Source: Streptomyces griseus (GTDB lineage: Bacteria; Actinomycetota; Actinomycetes; Nanopelagicales; Nanopelagicaceae). Taken from it: a stretch of 64,000 nt of DNA. Position 1 is the stretch's first letter. Each line of letters opens with the position of its first letter. Both the position numbers and the translations under genes were made by a program. The notes beneath the pieces were generated by a model. It had not been told where the DNA came from. It did not search any database and saw only the letters and a program-made list of their open reading frames with translations. The stretch covers positions 62,001-126,000 of the forward strand of contig CAMBDL010000002.1 in NCBI GenBank assembly GCA_945865365.1, given 5' to 3'. Shown here one piece after another: positions 14,072 to 37,854 of the stretch.

Positions 14072-14896
14072 TTAGAATAACTTTGGAATGACTGCTTTGA
14101 GAAGAGCGCCCATGCGATCTGCTGCAGCTTTTCCAGCGGCAATAACCTCTTCATGGTTGAGCTTTTCACCGGTTACACCTGCGGCAGCATTAGTTACTAA
14201 AGAGATTCCTAAAACCTCTGCGCCAAGCGCATGTGCGGCAATTGCTTCAGGGACCGTGGACATTCCTACTAAGTCAGCGCCCATTGTTCGCATCATCAAA
14301 ATCTCTGCTGGAGTCTCATACGTTGGCCCGCGCCAATGAACGTAGACACCTTCTTCAAGGGAAGCATCTTCCTGCTTAACGATCGCGCGAATTCGCTTGC
14401 TATAAAGATCAGTTAAATCAACAAAGGTTGCACCTGATAATGGTGAAACTGCGGTGAGGGAAATATGATCACGAATCAAGACTGGCTGGCCAACTGTGTA
14501 TGCGGTATTTATTCCACCGCATGCATTTGTAAGGATTACAACCTTGGCACCTGCCTTAACTGCAACTCGAACGCTATGCACCACTGGCTCAACGCCTTTA
14601 CCCTCATATAGATGTGTGCGACCAAGAAAGACAAGTGCGCGCAACTTTTTACCATTGCCATTGATCTCATATGAGCGAACTTTTCCAGAGTGACCGACAA
14701 CGGTTGGAGGTAAGAAGCCCGTTAACTCTTCCGCGTTACATTCATAGGCTGGTGTGCCGAGCGCATCAACTGCGCTGACCCAACCAGAGCCCATAACTAG
14801 TGCAACATCGTGGGCGAGGACACCTGTACGTTCAGCTATTTCGGAGGCAGCCAGACTTGCCGCCGCTAATGGATCGGAATAAAGAAGTTCGCTCAT
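14072..14896 (-). CDS. punA: Purine-nucleoside phosphorylase (trimeric class)
   Basis: Phosphorolysis of (deoxy)inosine and (deoxy)guanosine, 274 aa. Recognisable elements are [14 protein letters not shown] (phosphate loop), [21 protein letters not shown] and VTNAAAGV. It overlaps the accA stop by 4 nt (ATGA) and is followed within 4 nt by the mutase. It uses the inosine made by adenosine deaminase from the facing operon. Confidence 0.94.
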
Positions 14897-16611
14897 GCAT
14901 CAATAATGTCACACAGGATGGTGCCACTTGAAACTGTGGTGCCAATGACTGCAGTGAGATTAGTGACGATTCCTGACTTATGAGCCATTAATGGTTGCTC
15001 CATTTTCATAGCTTCAAGCACAATTACTAAATCTCCCACTTCGACGTGAGTGCCTTCTTCTGCAGCGATCTTCACAACAGTTCCCTGCATTGGGCTAGTG
15101 AGCCCCGATGCCCCCGATGCACCACTCATGCTTGCCTTAGCTCGATGTCGCTTTACTAAAGGCTCAGGTGCATGAAGTAAAATTTCAAAACGCTTTCCGT
15201 TCACTTCTGTGATTAGGCGCTCTGGTGCCATGAGCGATTGCAGTGGTGCTGCAGTTGCGATGAATGCAGGTATCTGGTTGACAAATTCATTTTCAATGTA
15301 GCTCGTGTAGATCTTAAAATCCTGGGTATATGCAGGATCTTCAACAATTGCGCGGTGAAAAGGTAGCGCAGTTGCAAGTCCACCAACAGTAAACTCAGCG
15401 AGTGCACGTCGAGCACGTTCAATAGCCTGCTCGCGAGTAGCACCGGTAACGATTAATTTTGCAAGAAGTGAGTCAAAGTTTCCACCAATGGTGTCACCAT
15501 TTTTGAATCCAGCATCTATGCGAACTCCAGGACCTGTTGGAATTACCCATTCAGTAATTCGCCCCGGTGCGGGAAGAAAAGATCTACCAGGATCCTCTCC
15601 ATTAATACGAAACTCAATTGAATGGCCACGGATTACTGGGTCATCAAAACCTAGGTGTTCACCCATAGCGATTCGAAACTGTTCACGTACAAGGTCAATT
15701 CCTGTAACTTCTTCGCTTACTGGATGCTCCACTTGTAAACGAGTGTTCACTTCTAGGAATGAGATAGTTCCATCTGCCCCCACAAGGAATTCACAAGTTC
15801 CAGCGCCGATGTAGCCAGCCTCTTTCATTATTGCTTTACTCGAGCGGTAGAGCTCTTCATTTTGAGCATCAGATAAAAAAGGTGCTGGAGCTTCCTCTAC
15901 TAATTTTTGATGGCGACGTTGTAATGAACAGTCTCGAGTACTCACAACGACGGCGTGTCCATGCATATCCACAAGCACTTGGGTTTCAACATGTCGGGGC
16001 TTATCTAAATAACGCTCAACAAAACACTCACCACGACCAAAGCCTGAAATTGCTTCACGTACTGCAGAGTCAAAGAGTTCAGGTATCTCCTCCATGGTGC
16101 GTGCAACCTTTAATCCACGTCCACCTCCACCATGGGCAGCTTTAATTGCAACGGGGAGTCCATGCTCTTGTGCAAAAGCGGTAACTTCAGCATGCCCAGC
16201 CACTGGATCTTTAGTTCCAGCAACAAGTGGAGCACCAGCTTTTGACGCGATTTTTCTGGCAGAGACTTTATCCCCGAGCGCTCGAATTGCAGAAGGCGGT
16301 GGCCCAATCCATATTAAACCAGCGTCGACGACCGCTTGAGCGAAGTGAGCGTTTTCAGATAAGAAACCATATCCAGGGTGAACAGCGTCGGCTCCAGATT
16401 GCTTGGCTACGTCTATTAGCTTTTCAATATGTAAATAAGTTTGAGCTGCGGTGGTCCCGTGTAAAGAAAAGGCTGAGTCGGCCATGTGCGTGTGAATAGC
16501 ATCTCGGTCTTCATCAGAATATACGGCGACAGACTCCAAGCCATGATCCTTACATGCTCGCATAACGCGAACCGCAATCTCACCACGGTTAGCTATAAGA
16601 ACGCGCTTCAT
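14893..16611 (-). CDS. Acyl-CoA carboxylase alpha subunit (biotin carboxylase + BCCP)
   Basis: Fused biotin carboxylase and biotin carboxyl carrier protein, 572 aa, of actinobacterial acetyl/propionyl-CoA carboxylase. The N-terminal [19 protein letters not shown] is typical. The ATP-grasp glycine loop is HGGGGRGLK, the active-site segment is [14 protein letters not shown], and the C-terminal biotinyl Lys lies in EAMKMEQP. The start is set at ATG 16611, overlapping the maf stop by 4 nt; the in-frame ATG at 16635 lies inside maf. It acts with the beta (17394-18965) and epsilon (17218-17394) subunits. Confidence 0.94.
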
Positions 16612-17210
16612 TGCATCACCTTTACCTCTGGCCACGAATAACCAAGCTGAGCCATAGCTTTACGGATAAATGGCATTGAAATACCCACCACGTTTGTGTA
16701 GTCGCCTTCTATGCTCGGGATAAACGGTGAACTAAAACCATCAAGAGTAAAGCCACCGGCTACATGTAGCGGCTCGCCACTGGCGACATAATCATTAATT
16801 TCATCATCAGTCATTGAATCGAAAGTTACTCTAGTCGTGACAATACTTGAGATTTCACGATCTTTTGTTGTGTCAATTACACAGTGTCCAGTATGCAAAA
16901 GACCAGATTTGCCTTGCACCCGCTTGGCTCGTGCTACTGCAACCTCGGGGGTTCCTGGCTTACCAAGTGACTTACCTTCGAATTCAAAAGTTGAATCGCA
17001 ACCGATAATAATCGCTGGAAAATTTATCTGTTCGCGAACTGTATGAGCTTTAGTGATGGCTAGGGCAATAACCATATCTACCGGTGAAAGTGCATTGAAA
17101 AAATCGGTCTCTTCGTCAACATGGCTCACCACCACCGAAATAGATAAGCCCGCAGACTCAAGTAATCGGCGACGCGATGACGATGCAGAAGCAAGGATAA
17201 TTCTTGGCAT
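16608..17210 (-). CDS. maf: Maf-like nucleoside triphosphate pyrophosphatase
   Basis: House-cleaning nucleotide pyrophosphatase that hydrolyses non-canonical or surplus dNTPs/NTPs, 200 aa. The family N-terminus [17 protein letters not shown], the SHVDEE segment and [11 protein letters not shown] are present. The start is set at ATG 17210, 7 nt after accE; a TTG at 17234 would overlap accE. Its position between carboxylase subunit genes is a layout I recall from other actinobacteria. Confidence 0.92.
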
Positions 17211-17217
17211 TAATAAA

Positions 17218-17394
17218 TTACTTCGTGCGTCCAAAGCGGAAATGGATGTTCAGTGGCTTTCTCAATTGTGGCCGGCCAAATCCAGCCTTACGAATGATTG
17301 GATTCACTTCTTCCCGCTTGTGCAATGACATCGCAACCTCGATTGCTGCTAGTTCATCGGTAGTTGGCGTACCGCTGGTGATTTGATACTTCAT
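17218..17394 (-). CDS. accE: Acyl-CoA carboxylase epsilon subunit (58 aa)
   Basis: Tiny gene found by translating the gap between the beta subunit gene and maf. The peptide starts [19 protein letters not shown] and ends HFRFGRTK. The G-x-P-x-x-x-E-L-A-A-I core is the hallmark of the actinobacterial AccE/PccE epsilon family, which bridges or stimulates alpha and beta subunits. Its ATG overlaps the accD stop by 1 nt (TAATG), and 7 nt separate it from maf. The last third (about residues 32-58) is basic and may be flexible. Short length and low conservation make the family call less certain than the gene itself. Confidence 0.82.
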   Translation of the reverse strand: MKYQITSGTPTTDELAAIEVAMSLHKREEVNPIIRKAGFGRPQLRKPLNIHFRFGRTK

Positions 17395-18965
17395 TAGAGC
17401 GGAATATTTCCATGTTTGCGAGCAGGCAAAGTATCTCGCTTAGTTCGCAAAGTTCTAAAGGCTTTTGTAATGTATGCACGAGATTGATTTGGCTCAATTA
17501 CCGTATCAATTGTTCCTCGTTCAGCGGCAAGATATGGGTTAGCCAGTGATTCGTTGTATTCATTAACGAGTTCAGCTCTCTTAGCGGCAGGATCTTTAGC
17601 TTCACTTAACTCTTTTCGGTAGAGAATATTTACTGCACCTTGAGCGCCCATGACAGCAATCTCAGCGCTTGGCCAGGCAAAGTTAATATCGCTTCCAAGA
17701 TACTTTGAACCCATCACGATAAATGCTCCACCATATGCCTTTCGTGTAATCAAAGTAACTAAAGGCACAGATGCTTCAGCGTAGGCATACAGCAGTTTTG
17801 CTCCGCGGCGAATGATTCCATCCCATTCTTGCTCAGTACCGGGCAAGAATCCGGGTACGTCTACCAAAGTTAAAATTGGAATATTAAACGCATCGCAAAA
17901 ACGTAAGAAACGCGCGGCTTTTTCACTTGAATTAATATCTAAAGTTCCCGCAAGTTGCGAAGGTTGATTAGCAATGATTCCGATTGATTCACCTTCGATG
18001 CGGGCAAAACCTACAACAATATTTGGCGCATAGAGTGCATGTACTTCAAGAAATTCACCTTCATCGACTAAGGCTTGTATGAGAATTTTCATGTCATACG
18101 GTTGATTTGGGCTATCAGGAATTAACGAATCAAGGGCGAGATCGCTCGCTTTTTTCTCTATAGATTCAGTTGGAGGAAGGTGAGGCGAGCTATCCATATT
18201 ATTTGAGGGTAAATATGAAAGCAGCGCTTTTACATAATCAATCGCATCCGCTTCACTTTCAGCCAAGTAGTGAGAGTTTCCAGTTCGAGTGTTGTGAGTG
18301 CGCGCACCACCGAGCTCTTCCATCCCGACTTCTTCACCCGTTACTGTTTTAATAACATCGGGACCAGTAATAAACATGTGTGATGTTTCATTGACCATAA
18401 CCGTAAAATCGGTCAGAGCCGGTGAGTAAGCCGAGCCGCCAGCGCATGGCCCGAGAATCAATGAGATTTGTGGAATTACACCTGAAGAGCGGGTATTTAG
18501 GCGAAAGATTTTTCCGTATCCAGCTAAAGAGGCCACGCCTTCTTGGATTCGTGCACCACCGGAATCATTAATACCGACCAACGGAATTCCACTCTTAAGG
18601 GCAAACTCGGCAATCTTTACAATTTTTTCTGCGTGAACTTCACCGAGGGAGCCACCCATAATCGTAAAATCCTGTGAGTACAAAGCGATAGGTCGGCCAT
18701 CAACTGTGGCAGTTCCGATAACAACGCCATCTCCGTAGGGACGATTTTTTTCCATACCGAACTGAGTTGATCGATGTCTGGCAAACTCATCTATCTCAGT
18801 AAATGAATCTTCATCGACGAGCATTTCAATGCGCTCTCGGGCGGTGTGCTTACCTTTGGCATGTTGCTTTTCAACGGCGCGGGCTGAACCGGCATGGACT
18901 GCCTCTTCAACACGGGCGCGCAGATCTTCGATTTTTCCGGCAGTTGTATGCAGATCACGGCTCAT
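17394..18965 (-). CDS. Acyl-CoA carboxylase beta subunit (carboxyltransferase)
   Basis: Carboxyltransferase, 523 aa, crotonase fold repeated twice. The acyl-CoA oxyanion region [21 protein letters not shown] is typical, and the C-terminal half has the biotin-site motif [15 protein letters not shown] and [10 protein letters not shown]. It is the first gene of a nine-gene minus-strand operon and starts at ATG 18965 with a leaderless-type promoter. Together with accA it makes malonyl- or methylmalonyl-CoA; the acyl specificity cannot be read from the sequence alone. Confidence 0.94.
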
Positions 18966-18977
18966 ACCCCTACGGTA
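18966..18977 (-). promoter_or_regulatory. Leaderless promoter of the accD operon
   Basis: On the minus strand TACCGT (18977-18972) ends 6 nt before the accD ATG, with no room for a ribosome site. The box overlaps the birA -10 box on the other strand by five base pairs, so the two promoters cannot both hold polymerase at once. Confidence 0.6.
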
Positions 18978-18983
18978 CTAGGC
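18971..18983 (+). promoter_or_regulatory. Leaderless promoter of birA
   Basis: TACGGT (18971-18976) ends 7 nt before GTG 18984, which supports that start codon over ATG 18996. The whole 18-nt intergenic region holds both divergent -10 boxes, the shared core being TACGGTA. Confidence 0.6.
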
Positions 18984-19742
18984 GTGGACATAGAAATGCT
19001 AAGAGCGCCGCTAGATAGTCGAGCTATCAATGCCAATTTGACGCAGTACTGGCGAGTAAGCGTGGTCGAACTCACGGCCTCAACACAAAGTGATCTTATT
19101 GATTTAGTTATGCAAGGTCGTGCCGAAGCAGGCGATGCAATAGTTGCAGATTTTCAAAGTGCAGGTCGCGGCCGACTTACCCGAACTTTTGAAGCTCCGC
19201 CTGGCTCTGCTTTGTTATTTTCTTTTTATATTAAACCGTCTCGAGCTAGAAGTGATTGGGGATGGATTCCATTAATTGCAGGTGTCAGCGTTGCACAATC
19301 TTTACCCGGAGTTGACGCACGTGTTAAATGGCCAAATGATATTTTGATAAATGAAAAAAAGGTTTCGGGTTTAATTGCCCAAGTAGTTGATGATGGAATA
19401 GTTATTGGTATTGGAATAAATGTCGGAATGCACGCAAGTGAAATACCAGTACCTCAAGCAACTTCGCTTGCAATTGAAGGCGTTCTTAATATTTCTCGGA
19501 ATGAACTTCTTGCCAAGCTACTCCTTACTTTCGAAAAGAACTTCACTGTGTGGGATGAAGGAAGTGATGAAATCTGCACAGTTTATGGGGATATCAGCGC
19601 AACGCTTGGAAAAAGCGTAGAAGTGCATTATCCCGATGGAAGAGTTGAAGGCGGCACTGCAGTGGCTATCTCGCCCTCGGGCGAGTTGGTTTTAGCCGAT
19701 GGAGTTCATGTTCTAGCCGCAGACATTATTCATCTACGATAA
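18984..19742 (+). CDS. birA: Biotin-[acetyl-CoA-carboxylase] ligase
   Basis: Attaches biotin to the BCCP lysine of AccA encoded across the divergent promoter, 252 aa. It has the ligase segment STQSDLIDLV, the biotin loop GRGRLTRTFEAPPGSAL, and KWPNDILINEKKVSGLI with the catalytic Lys. The C-terminal SH3-like cap includes the segment DGRVEGGTAVAISP. There is no N-terminal winged-helix domain, so it is a monofunctional ligase rather than a repressor. The GTG start is chosen from the -10 spacing. Confidence 0.93.
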   Translation: MDIEMLRAPLDSRAINANLTQYWRVSVVELTASTQSDLIDLVMQGRAEAGDAIVADFQSAGRGRLTRTFEAPPGSALLFSFYIKPSRARSDWGWIPLIAGVSVAQSLPGVDARVKWPNDILINEKKVSGLIAQVVDDGIVIGIGINVGMHASEIPVPQATSLAIEGVLNISRNELLAKLLLTFEKNFTVWDEGSDEICTVYGDISATLGKSVEVHYPDGRVEGGTAVAISPSGELVLADGVHVLAADIIHLR

Positions 19743-35637: not shown

Positions 35638-36908
35638 TACGCCTCCTTGTAAGCAACAGGCGATTTCTCGCGGTGATCATGACGCCAGTTTTCCGGCAAT
35701 AAGTGATCCAAAACATCATCGACGGTAATTGCACCTAATAAGCGTTCATTGGCATCAATCACTGGTAATGAGAGCATGTTGTAGCTCGCAAGATGTGAAG
35801 AAACCTCATGCAGAGTTGCATCTGGCTTCACACCTTTAGAGTCAGTGTCAACAATGGAGCCAAGCAGAGTTGAAGGTGGTTCACGTAATAAACGTTGGTA
35901 ATGAACCGTACCTATAAAACGCCCAGTTGGGGTTTCAAGGGGTTGGCGACAGATAAAAATTTGGGAGGCAAGTGCAGGAGAGATCTCTTTTTGCCGAACG
36001 GCAGCTAGTGCATCGGCAACAGAATAATCGGCGCTCATAACAATTGGCTCGGTAGTCATCATTCCGCCAGCTGAATAATCTTCATAGTTCATCAGACGCA
36101 AAACATCTTCAGCATCTTCTGGCTCCATCAACTCTAAAAGTGCTTCGGCGCGCTCTTGCCCAATTTCTCGCAATAAATCTGCGGCATCATCTGGATCCAT
36201 TTCACCCAGAACATCGGCAGCTCGCTCTCCTTCAAGGGCTTGAAGAAGTGCAACGCGATCGTCTTCATCCATTTCCTCTAATACATCTGCAAGGCGTTCA
36301 TCATCTAATGCTCCAGCAATTTCTACACGACGCTTAGCTGGCAGATCTTGGAGCACGGTAGCTAAATCTGCCGCACGCAAATTTGAAAGCGTTGAAAGCA
36401 AGTTTGTGACACCTTGGTTTTGTTCGGTGTGGGCAAAGCCAACTACTTCTTCCCAAGCAACCGTTGAAGTTGCCCCTTTACGGCGAAGACCCCGACCGGG
36501 GCGCATAATATGAACTCGATTAATCAACCAATCACCGGTGCGATTTTGTTCCATACCCATATCTTCGACAATTACTCTTTCACCAGATGCGATATGCGTA
36601 ATTAAACGATCGAGCATGTCACCTAGGACTAAAACTTCACCAGGGCGGGTTTCGTAACGGCGCATATTCAATAGACCAGTAATCACAACTGCGCCGCTCT
36701 CAATCGAGGTGACTCGAGTTATGGGAACAAAGACTCGACGACGAAGTGGAACTTCTACGACTAAACCAAGAACACGAGGAGGTAAGTTATTAGTACGAAG
36801 GGTCGCCACAGCATCTCGCACCTTTCCTACTGGATCACCATTTGGGTCAAATACCGCGGTGCCTGCAAGACGGGCGAGAAATACTCGGTTTAAGAGATTG
36901 CCGCTCAT
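35637..36908 (-). CDS. MgtE N-domain / CBS-pair protein without transporter domain
   Basis: Soluble protein, 423 aa, with three parts: an N-terminal PRC-barrel-like region (about 1-80, AGTAVFDPNGDPVGKVRDAV), an MgtE intracellular N superhelix (about 170-280, with repeated ADLLREIGQERAEALLELM-type helices), and two CBS domains (about 285-410). The five-helix Mg2+ channel of MgtE is absent and there is no hydrophobic segment. It may therefore act as a magnesium or adenylate sensor for another membrane protein such as DUF1003. Leaderless start at ATG 36908. Confidence 0.87.
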   Translation of the reverse strand: MSGNLLNRVFLARLAGTAVFDPNGDPVGKVRDAVATLRTNNLPPRVLGLVVEVPLRRRVFVPITRVTSIESGAVVITGLLNMRRYETRPGEVLVLGDMLDRLITHIASGERVIVEDMGMEQNRTGDWLINRVHIMRPGRGLRRKGATSTVAWEEVVGFAHTEQNQGVTNLLSTLSNLRAADLATVLQDLPAKRRVEIAGALDDERLADVLEEMDEDDRVALLQALEGERAADVLGEMDPDDAADLLREIGQERAEALLELMEPEDAEDVLRLMNYEDYSAGGMMTTEPIVMSADYSVADALAAVRQKEISPALASQIFICRQPLETPTGRFIGTVHYQRLLREPPSTLLGSIVDTDSKGVKPDATLHEVSSHLASYNMLSLPVIDANERLLGAITVDDVLDHLLPENWRHDHREKSPVAYKEA

Positions 36909-36920
36909 GGGTTAAGGGTA
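36909..36920 (-). promoter_or_regulatory. Leaderless promoter of the MgtE-N/CBS gene
   Basis: TACCCT (36920-36915, minus strand) ends 6 nt before ATG 36908. It shares the base pairs 36919-36920 with the opposing eamA -10 box. Confidence 0.6.
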
Positions 36921-36930
36921 CCTTTACCTC
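36919..36930 (+). promoter_or_regulatory. Leaderless promoter of the EamA transporter operon
   Basis: TACCTT (36919-36924) ends 6 nt before ATG 36931. The intergenic region is only 22 nt and is centred on GGTACC, giving two mirrored promoters with overlapping -10 boxes. Confidence 0.6.
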
Positions 36931-37854
36931 ATGGGTGCAGGAGAACAATTGCAGGGCGGTTATCACAATCGCGATAGTCATACGGCCATTCCTGCTCGAC
37001 CCGATCTGATTCGCTTGGGTATTGGAATAATAGGAATCGGTACATCTGGTCCACTTATTGCAATGAGCACGATGCCAATCACAACATTAATTTTCTGGAG
37101 AAATTTAGGAGGGGCGATATTAACTCTGCCCTTTGCGCTCAGACATCGTGCTCATCGCGAAGGAGTCACGTGGGCGATTATCGCAGGAGTCGTTCTAGCA
37201 GTTCACTTTATGGGCTTCTTTCTTGCTATGCGCTGGACAACTGTTGCTGCTGGTACTGCTCTTGTCGCATTACAACCGATTTTTGCTGCACTCTTTGTGA
37301 AATTGAGTGGTGGTCATATTCCATCATCGGTGTGGCTAGGAATGATTGTTAGTTTTACAGGTGTACTACTCATCTCAGGCGTTGATCTTACTATTTCGTT
37401 TCAAGCATTTCTTGGAGACATCGCTGCACTGCTCTCTGCAGCCTTAGCTGCCTTATACATGATGGCGGGTTCAAGAGCGCAGCGAACGTTAGAGACAACC
37501 ACCTATACGACTATTTGTTATTTTGTATGTGCAGTAACAGTACTCCCAGTGGCTGTTATTTCAGGAGTACCTCTGTTTCATTTCACGGCACGTGAGTGGT
37601 GGATTCTTCTCGGGCTTATTGTGGGTGCTCAGATTCTTGGTCATACAATGTTTAATTCAGCCTTAAAACGAGTGTCACCAGCGATTGTCTCGCTCATTAT
37701 ATTTTTTGAAGTTCCGGTGAGTTCAATTCTTGCGGTATGGTGGATTGGTCAGAAGCCACCGCTTGGAATTCTTCCGGGAATAGCCCTCATTTTAATCGGT
37801 TGTGTTTTAGTAGTTACACGCAGTCGTTCCAACCAAGTTGAAATTACACCATGA
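36931..37854 (+). CDS. EamA/DMT-family transporter
   Basis: Drug/metabolite transporter superfamily, 307 aa. About ten hydrophobic helices form two EamA repeats, the first starting near LGIGIIGIGTSGPLIAMST and the second near FLGDIAALLSAALAALYMM. A hydrophilic N-terminal extension of about 28 residues precedes helix 1. Substrate unknown; exporters of amino acids or metabolites are common in the family. It overlaps the PHP gene by 4 nt. Confidence 0.9.
   Translation: MGAGEQLQGGYHNRDSHTAIPARPDLIRLGIGIIGIGTSGPLIAMSTMPITTLIFWRNLGGAILTLPFALRHRAHREGVTWAIIAGVVLAVHFMGFFLAMRWTTVAAGTALVALQPIFAALFVKLSGGHIPSSVWLGMIVSFTGVLLISGVDLTISFQAFLGDIAALLSAALAALYMMAGSRAQRTLETTTYTTICYFVCAVTVLPVAVISGVPLFHFTAREWWILLGLIVGAQILGHTMFNSALKRVSPAIVSLIIFFEVPVSSILAVWWIGQKPPLGILPGIALILIGCVLVVTRSRSNQVEITP

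Follow-up and report, generated by a model that had tools for sequence, protein, structure and literature searches.

A symmetric −10 core between accD and birA as a probable bidirectional promoter for two predicted leaderless transcripts in a Planktophila-type actinobacterium

The 18 nt that separate the divergent genes accD and birA probably act as a single bidirectional promoter, judging from sequence and its conservation, and would give rise to two leaderless mRNAs at low occupancy and largely independently of each other. RNA polymerase carrying the main sigma factor would bind the pseudo-symmetric heptamer TACGGTA in either orientation. One orientation would yield a leftward leaderless mRNA, accD-(small ORF)-maf-accA3, starting at approximately 18965, and the other a rightward leaderless birA mRNA starting at approximately 18984. 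The locus lies in a 64-kb window (the whole stretch of DNA that was analyzed), which is part of a 1.41-Mb, 26-contig genome of Candidatus Planktophila type (acI actinobacteria). Candidatus Planktophila, a group of freshwater acI actinobacteria, is among the genome's named close relatives. Coordinates of the features discussed are collected in Table 1.

Table 1. Features of the accD-birA locus, in positions of the 64-kb window
Feature	Positions	Strand	Description or basis
accD-birA intergenic region, whole proposed bidirectional promoter	18966..18983	.	exactly 18 nt, ACCCC TACGGTA CTAGGC
Shared symmetric −10 core TACGGTA (TANNNTA)	18971..18977	.	letters and conservation
birA −10 box TACGGT	18971..18976	+	hexamer start at −13 from GTG
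accD −10 box TACCGT	18972..18977	-	hexamer start at −12 from ATG
birA, biotin protein ligase, 252 aa	18984..19742	+	predicted leaderless start GTG at 18984
accD, acyl-CoA carboxylase carboxyltransferase, 523 aa	17394..18965	-	predicted leaderless start ATG at 18965
58-aa ORF between accD and maf	17218..17394	-	possible AccE-type small subunit, by position only
maf-like gene of the accD operon	16608..17234	-	ORF listing and family scan
Biotin carboxylase with biotin carrier domain (accA3-type)	14893..16635	-	PF00364 at residues 512-577
Tentative −35 position for birA: accD codons 4-8, with little synonymous change	18942..18956	+	
Tentative −35 position for accD: birA codons 4-6, with little third-position change	18995..19001	-	

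The two genes were identified by family matches to TIGR00121 and PF03099 (BirA) and to PF01039 (AccD). Their start codons occupy 18963-18965 (CAT, with accD on the minus strand) and 18984-18986 (GTG, birA). The fused biotin carboxylase/biotin carrier protein (accA3-type) is the expected substrate of BirA, and a Pfam scan of the 58-aa ORF yielded no match. Since the genome encodes the biotin transporter BioY and has no bioB above the curated cut-off, the organism probably imports biotin. Two other starts were considered for birA. The longer frame beginning with an ATG at 18894, inside accD, was rejected in favor of 18984, to which both the conserved box and the conserved variation in start codon point. 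An internal start at codon 5 (18996) was set aside because the start codon there is not conserved.

The initial annotation placed an accD box (18977-18972) and a birA box (18971-18976) within the same 7 bp, and the letters confirm this. TACGGTA fits TANNNT when read from either strand, and the −10 base pairs are common to both promoters. Each box was also said to be correctly spaced from its start codon, which holds, since the offsets of −12 (accD) and −13 (birA) are the genome-wide leaderless −10 peaks. We took genes and starts from a simple codon model and counted TANNNT upstream of candidate ATG/GTG codons. The motif was found in 9.1% (at −12) and 4.7% (at −13) of candidate RTG starts, compared with approximately 1.1% elsewhere upstream. 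These peaks are the signature of widespread leaderless transcription, as in M. tuberculosis (PMC3898074). Both accD and birA have TANNNT 6–7 nt before RTG, and there is no spaced Shine-Dalgarno sequence upstream of either gene in the 18-nt gap. With both predicted transcripts leaderless, the promoter would be the entire intergenic region.

The bare motif proves little, as CAY-N5-TANNNTA-N6-RTG is expected 0.48 times in the 64-kb window and was found once; what makes it significant is that it lies between two real genes and is conserved. By the genome's own −10 matrix, the two hexamers are below average (ranked at the 30th and 13th percentile among its leaderless boxes), and no sigma-70-type −35/−10 pair was called in the accD-birA region, which together suggest that occupancy is probably low. 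No −35 motif is visible genome-wide.

The same geometry (a shared TANNNTA and a 19-nt distance between start codons) was present in 61/61 testable Planktophila loci, in 73/73 testable named loci (a set overlapping those 61), and in 14/14 loci of the sister genus g3. The relatives are mostly metagenome assemblies, and kinship between sequences was partly corrected by the use of parsimony counts. By this measure, T18971, A18972, T18976, and A18977 showed no changes in 96 distinct sequences, compared with a mean of 31 and a minimum of 9 changes per site at 60 fourfold sites of accD. T18971 is required only by the birA box and A18977 only by the accD box. Because each of these direction-specific bases is without change, both directions look selected. 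Throughout the 96 sequences, the birA start codon varied only among GTG, ATG, and TTG, at one fixed place.

The accD-birA geometry appears again in genera g4, g9, and g12 and partly in g6, g15, and g7. In g10 and parts of g6, g15, and g7, the birA start is shifted and the accD box retained. Three of the g7 loci have a displaced birA start and no longer carry the birA-only T, with the accD box kept. At other loci, the birA-only T is retained and birA starts downstream, with a purine-rich stretch before some of these starts. Five loci (L097, L105, L110, L116, and L122) have lost the leaderless birA start and kept the TANNNTA core, with the start codon downstream, in some behind a purine-rich stretch; they may represent natural transitions, at a single promoter, from leaderless to leadered translation. 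Separately, a search for accD in family f1 gave no match in g2 and g16 (genomes of ~1.0–1.3 Mb) at a strict cut-off, and it is possible that this carboxylase has been lost or replaced there.

Outside the Nanopelagicaceae, the accD/birA pair is usually retained, but the gap is longer (mostly ~50–400 bp in birA/accD5 pairs) and the promoters are mostly separate. There, birA usually has a leaderless box, mostly one that is not common to accD, and two loci of family f28 have an interlocked 24–25 bp form of the arrangement. Conservation in relatives, proposed initially as a check, is seen within Planktophila and g3, where the geometry is identical. The mostly separate promoters and longer gaps found outside the family indicate that accD and birA can function as a pair without a common promoter.

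The accD/birA core appears to be a clean example of an already known class, the bidirectional bacterial promoters with a symmetric −10 (Warman et al. 2021, as cited in PMC10268837; Warman et al. 2026, PMC12825309). Such promoters have divergent starts 7–25 bp apart, typically 18. As in that class, the accD/birA −10 is pseudo-symmetric, would serve both strands, and would need no separate regulator. Start codons and box offsets place its predicted divergent start sites 18–19 bp apart, against the published favorite of 18 bp. It departs from the published promoters in that its starts are predicted, neither of its transcripts is expected to have a leader, and an entire genus shares the arrangement.

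Actinobacterial leaderless promoters are described as having a TANNNT −10, no detectable −35 motif, and RTG at the 5′ end (PMC3898074, PMC4633059). Closely juxtaposed divergent promoters are reported to be common in M. tuberculosis (Cortes et al. 2013, PMC3898074; Shell et al. 2015, PMC4633059). Similarly, accD and birA have a TANNNT −10 and no detectable −35, with RTG at the predicted 5′ end; however, the two features that those papers describe apart would here be combined, as two leaderless promoters on one core. The genes and their divergent order are the same as in M. tuberculosis Rv3279c/Rv3280 (birA/accD5). Searching the literature for Planktophila leaderless genes gave no results.

Leaderless boxes were present on both sides in 39/158 divergent pairs of this genome, compared with 0–1 at control offsets, in a scan that used gene starts from a simple model and a widened start search. 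Start-codon separations among the close pairs were 18–19 (four pairs, accD/birA included), 23–24 (four pairs, interlocked), and then at least 26, and the first two classes agree with the published preferred distances of 18 and 23 bp (PMC12825309). Judged by sequence, the other three pairs at 18–19 look like endonuclease III/CRP-family regulator, phosphoesterase-like/mobA-like, and MFS transporter/ABC-transporter ATPase. Conservation in the genus extends to the first two of these, both of which have a TANNNTA core, and the mobA-like pair is conserved in all loci where the phosphoesterase neighbor is present. The existence of shared-core pairs elsewhere in the genome makes accD/birA one of several, and the arrangement is not special to biotin genes.

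Two compact pairs can be described individually. The endonuclease III/CRP-family pair at G000:C5:89620-89639 (L316; relatives L317-L345) has a doubly leaderless shared −10, TAAAGTA or TAAACTA. Its geometry is kept in most loci of the genus, with slightly longer or shorter spacing in some. The window has a second compact divergent pair at positions 36906-36933 (G000:C2:98906-98933), where a gene for an MgtE_N/CBS/PRC-domain protein (minus strand) and one for an EamA transporter (plus strand) have start codons 23 nt apart, and their two leaderless −10 boxes are interlocked via a common TA (CATGGGTTAAGGGTACCTTTACCTCATG).

The initial annotation described the accD and birA promoters as opposite, fully overlapping, and free of any regulator, and this description finds good support in the geometry, the genome-wide leaderless statistics, the conservation, and the lack of a dispersed operator. 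It also proposed a built-in see-saw. In such a switch, polymerase occupying the core in one direction would measurably reduce output in the other, and transcripts of the accD operon and birA would be anticorrelated at physiological levels. The evidence does not support this, and we consider it unlikely. The two sites are physically exclusive, and exclusion of polymerase at the core is certain if both directions are used, but exclusion is not the same as interference. Five promoters of this kind have been tested in E. coli: basal activity was too low for competition at all of them, and the opposite transcript was repressed only after a strong increase in one direction (PMC12825309). Both accD/birA boxes are weak by the genome's own −10 matrix. 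The adjacent M. tuberculosis genes birA and accD5 are both listed as SigH-dependent, with increases of 6.4 for Rv3279c and 2.1 for Rv3280 (PMC4803200), a comparison that covers the induction list. There is also no obvious benefit in the ligase dropping while its substrate rises, and such pairs are not peculiar to biotin genes.

The E. coli basal activities, the hexamer percentiles, and the same-direction increases in M. tuberculosis count against a see-saw, and co-variation or near-independence is more likely. By analogy with published symmetric −10 promoters and their low basal activity, weak or no coupling would be the default expectation. Under the bidirectional promoter that we favor, both transcripts would most likely be made at low occupancy and largely independently. 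Common local conditions (sigma factor, DNA melting, supercoiling) would tend to make them move together, and measurable competition would arise only once one direction became strong.

It is improbable that only one direction is a real promoter, with the other gene transcribed from another site and its box arising simply because TANNNT is nearly symmetric. By itself, a TANNNTA motif between start codons is not unusual, and the genera that keep the accD box while the birA start shifts downstream would fit such a reading. However, it does not account for the invariance of both direction-specific bases in the 96 sequences or for the leaderless distance of both start codons throughout Planktophila, and the gap is too short for a Shine-Dalgarno leader of either gene.

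Conservation extends past the four key bases to G18974, C18978, and mostly CTAG at 18978-18981, which the −10 model alone does not explain. Most Planktophila sequences and several genera retain this CTAG, including at loci with a displaced birA start. The reach of conservation beyond the −10, to GTAC and CTAG, might suit an operator at which a regulator represses or activates both genes, but we regard this as very improbable: of the three exact copies of TACGGTACTAG in the genome, the two besides this one lie within coding sequence; BirA had no match to an N-terminal DNA-binding domain in the family scan; the same geometry occurs in other genera with a different interior (TACCGTACCTC); and no RNA element was found in Rfam at the accD-birA locus. 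Third-position change is also low in accD codons 4–8 and birA codons 4–6, each at the −35 place of the opposite gene. This might tentatively reflect −35 contacts or, alternatively, translation-start constraints.

As to the origin of the bidirectional promoter, a leaderless birA promoter is common in the class, and it probably became common to accD during genome compaction in the Nanopelagicaceae. A broader proposal, which we regard as doubtful, is that shared cores are selectively kept in streamlined actinobacteria as a general device tying the output of functionally linked divergent genes, in this case biotin ligase and the operon for its substrate, with direction possibly set by the first nucleotide. 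That nucleotide is A for accD and mostly G for birA, and if it sets direction, the accD/birA ratio could be sensitive to the ATP/GTP balance.

The accD-birA region would be an unusually compact and deeply conserved natural bidirectional promoter for two mRNAs that are both predicted to be leaderless, with two start codons, two predicted start sites, and one −10 packed into 24 bp. It illustrates how genome streamlining can fuse two promoters. The family offers natural variants in which one accD/birA direction is altered, and the locus would be well suited to testing whether competition between polymerases has an effect at natural promoter strength.
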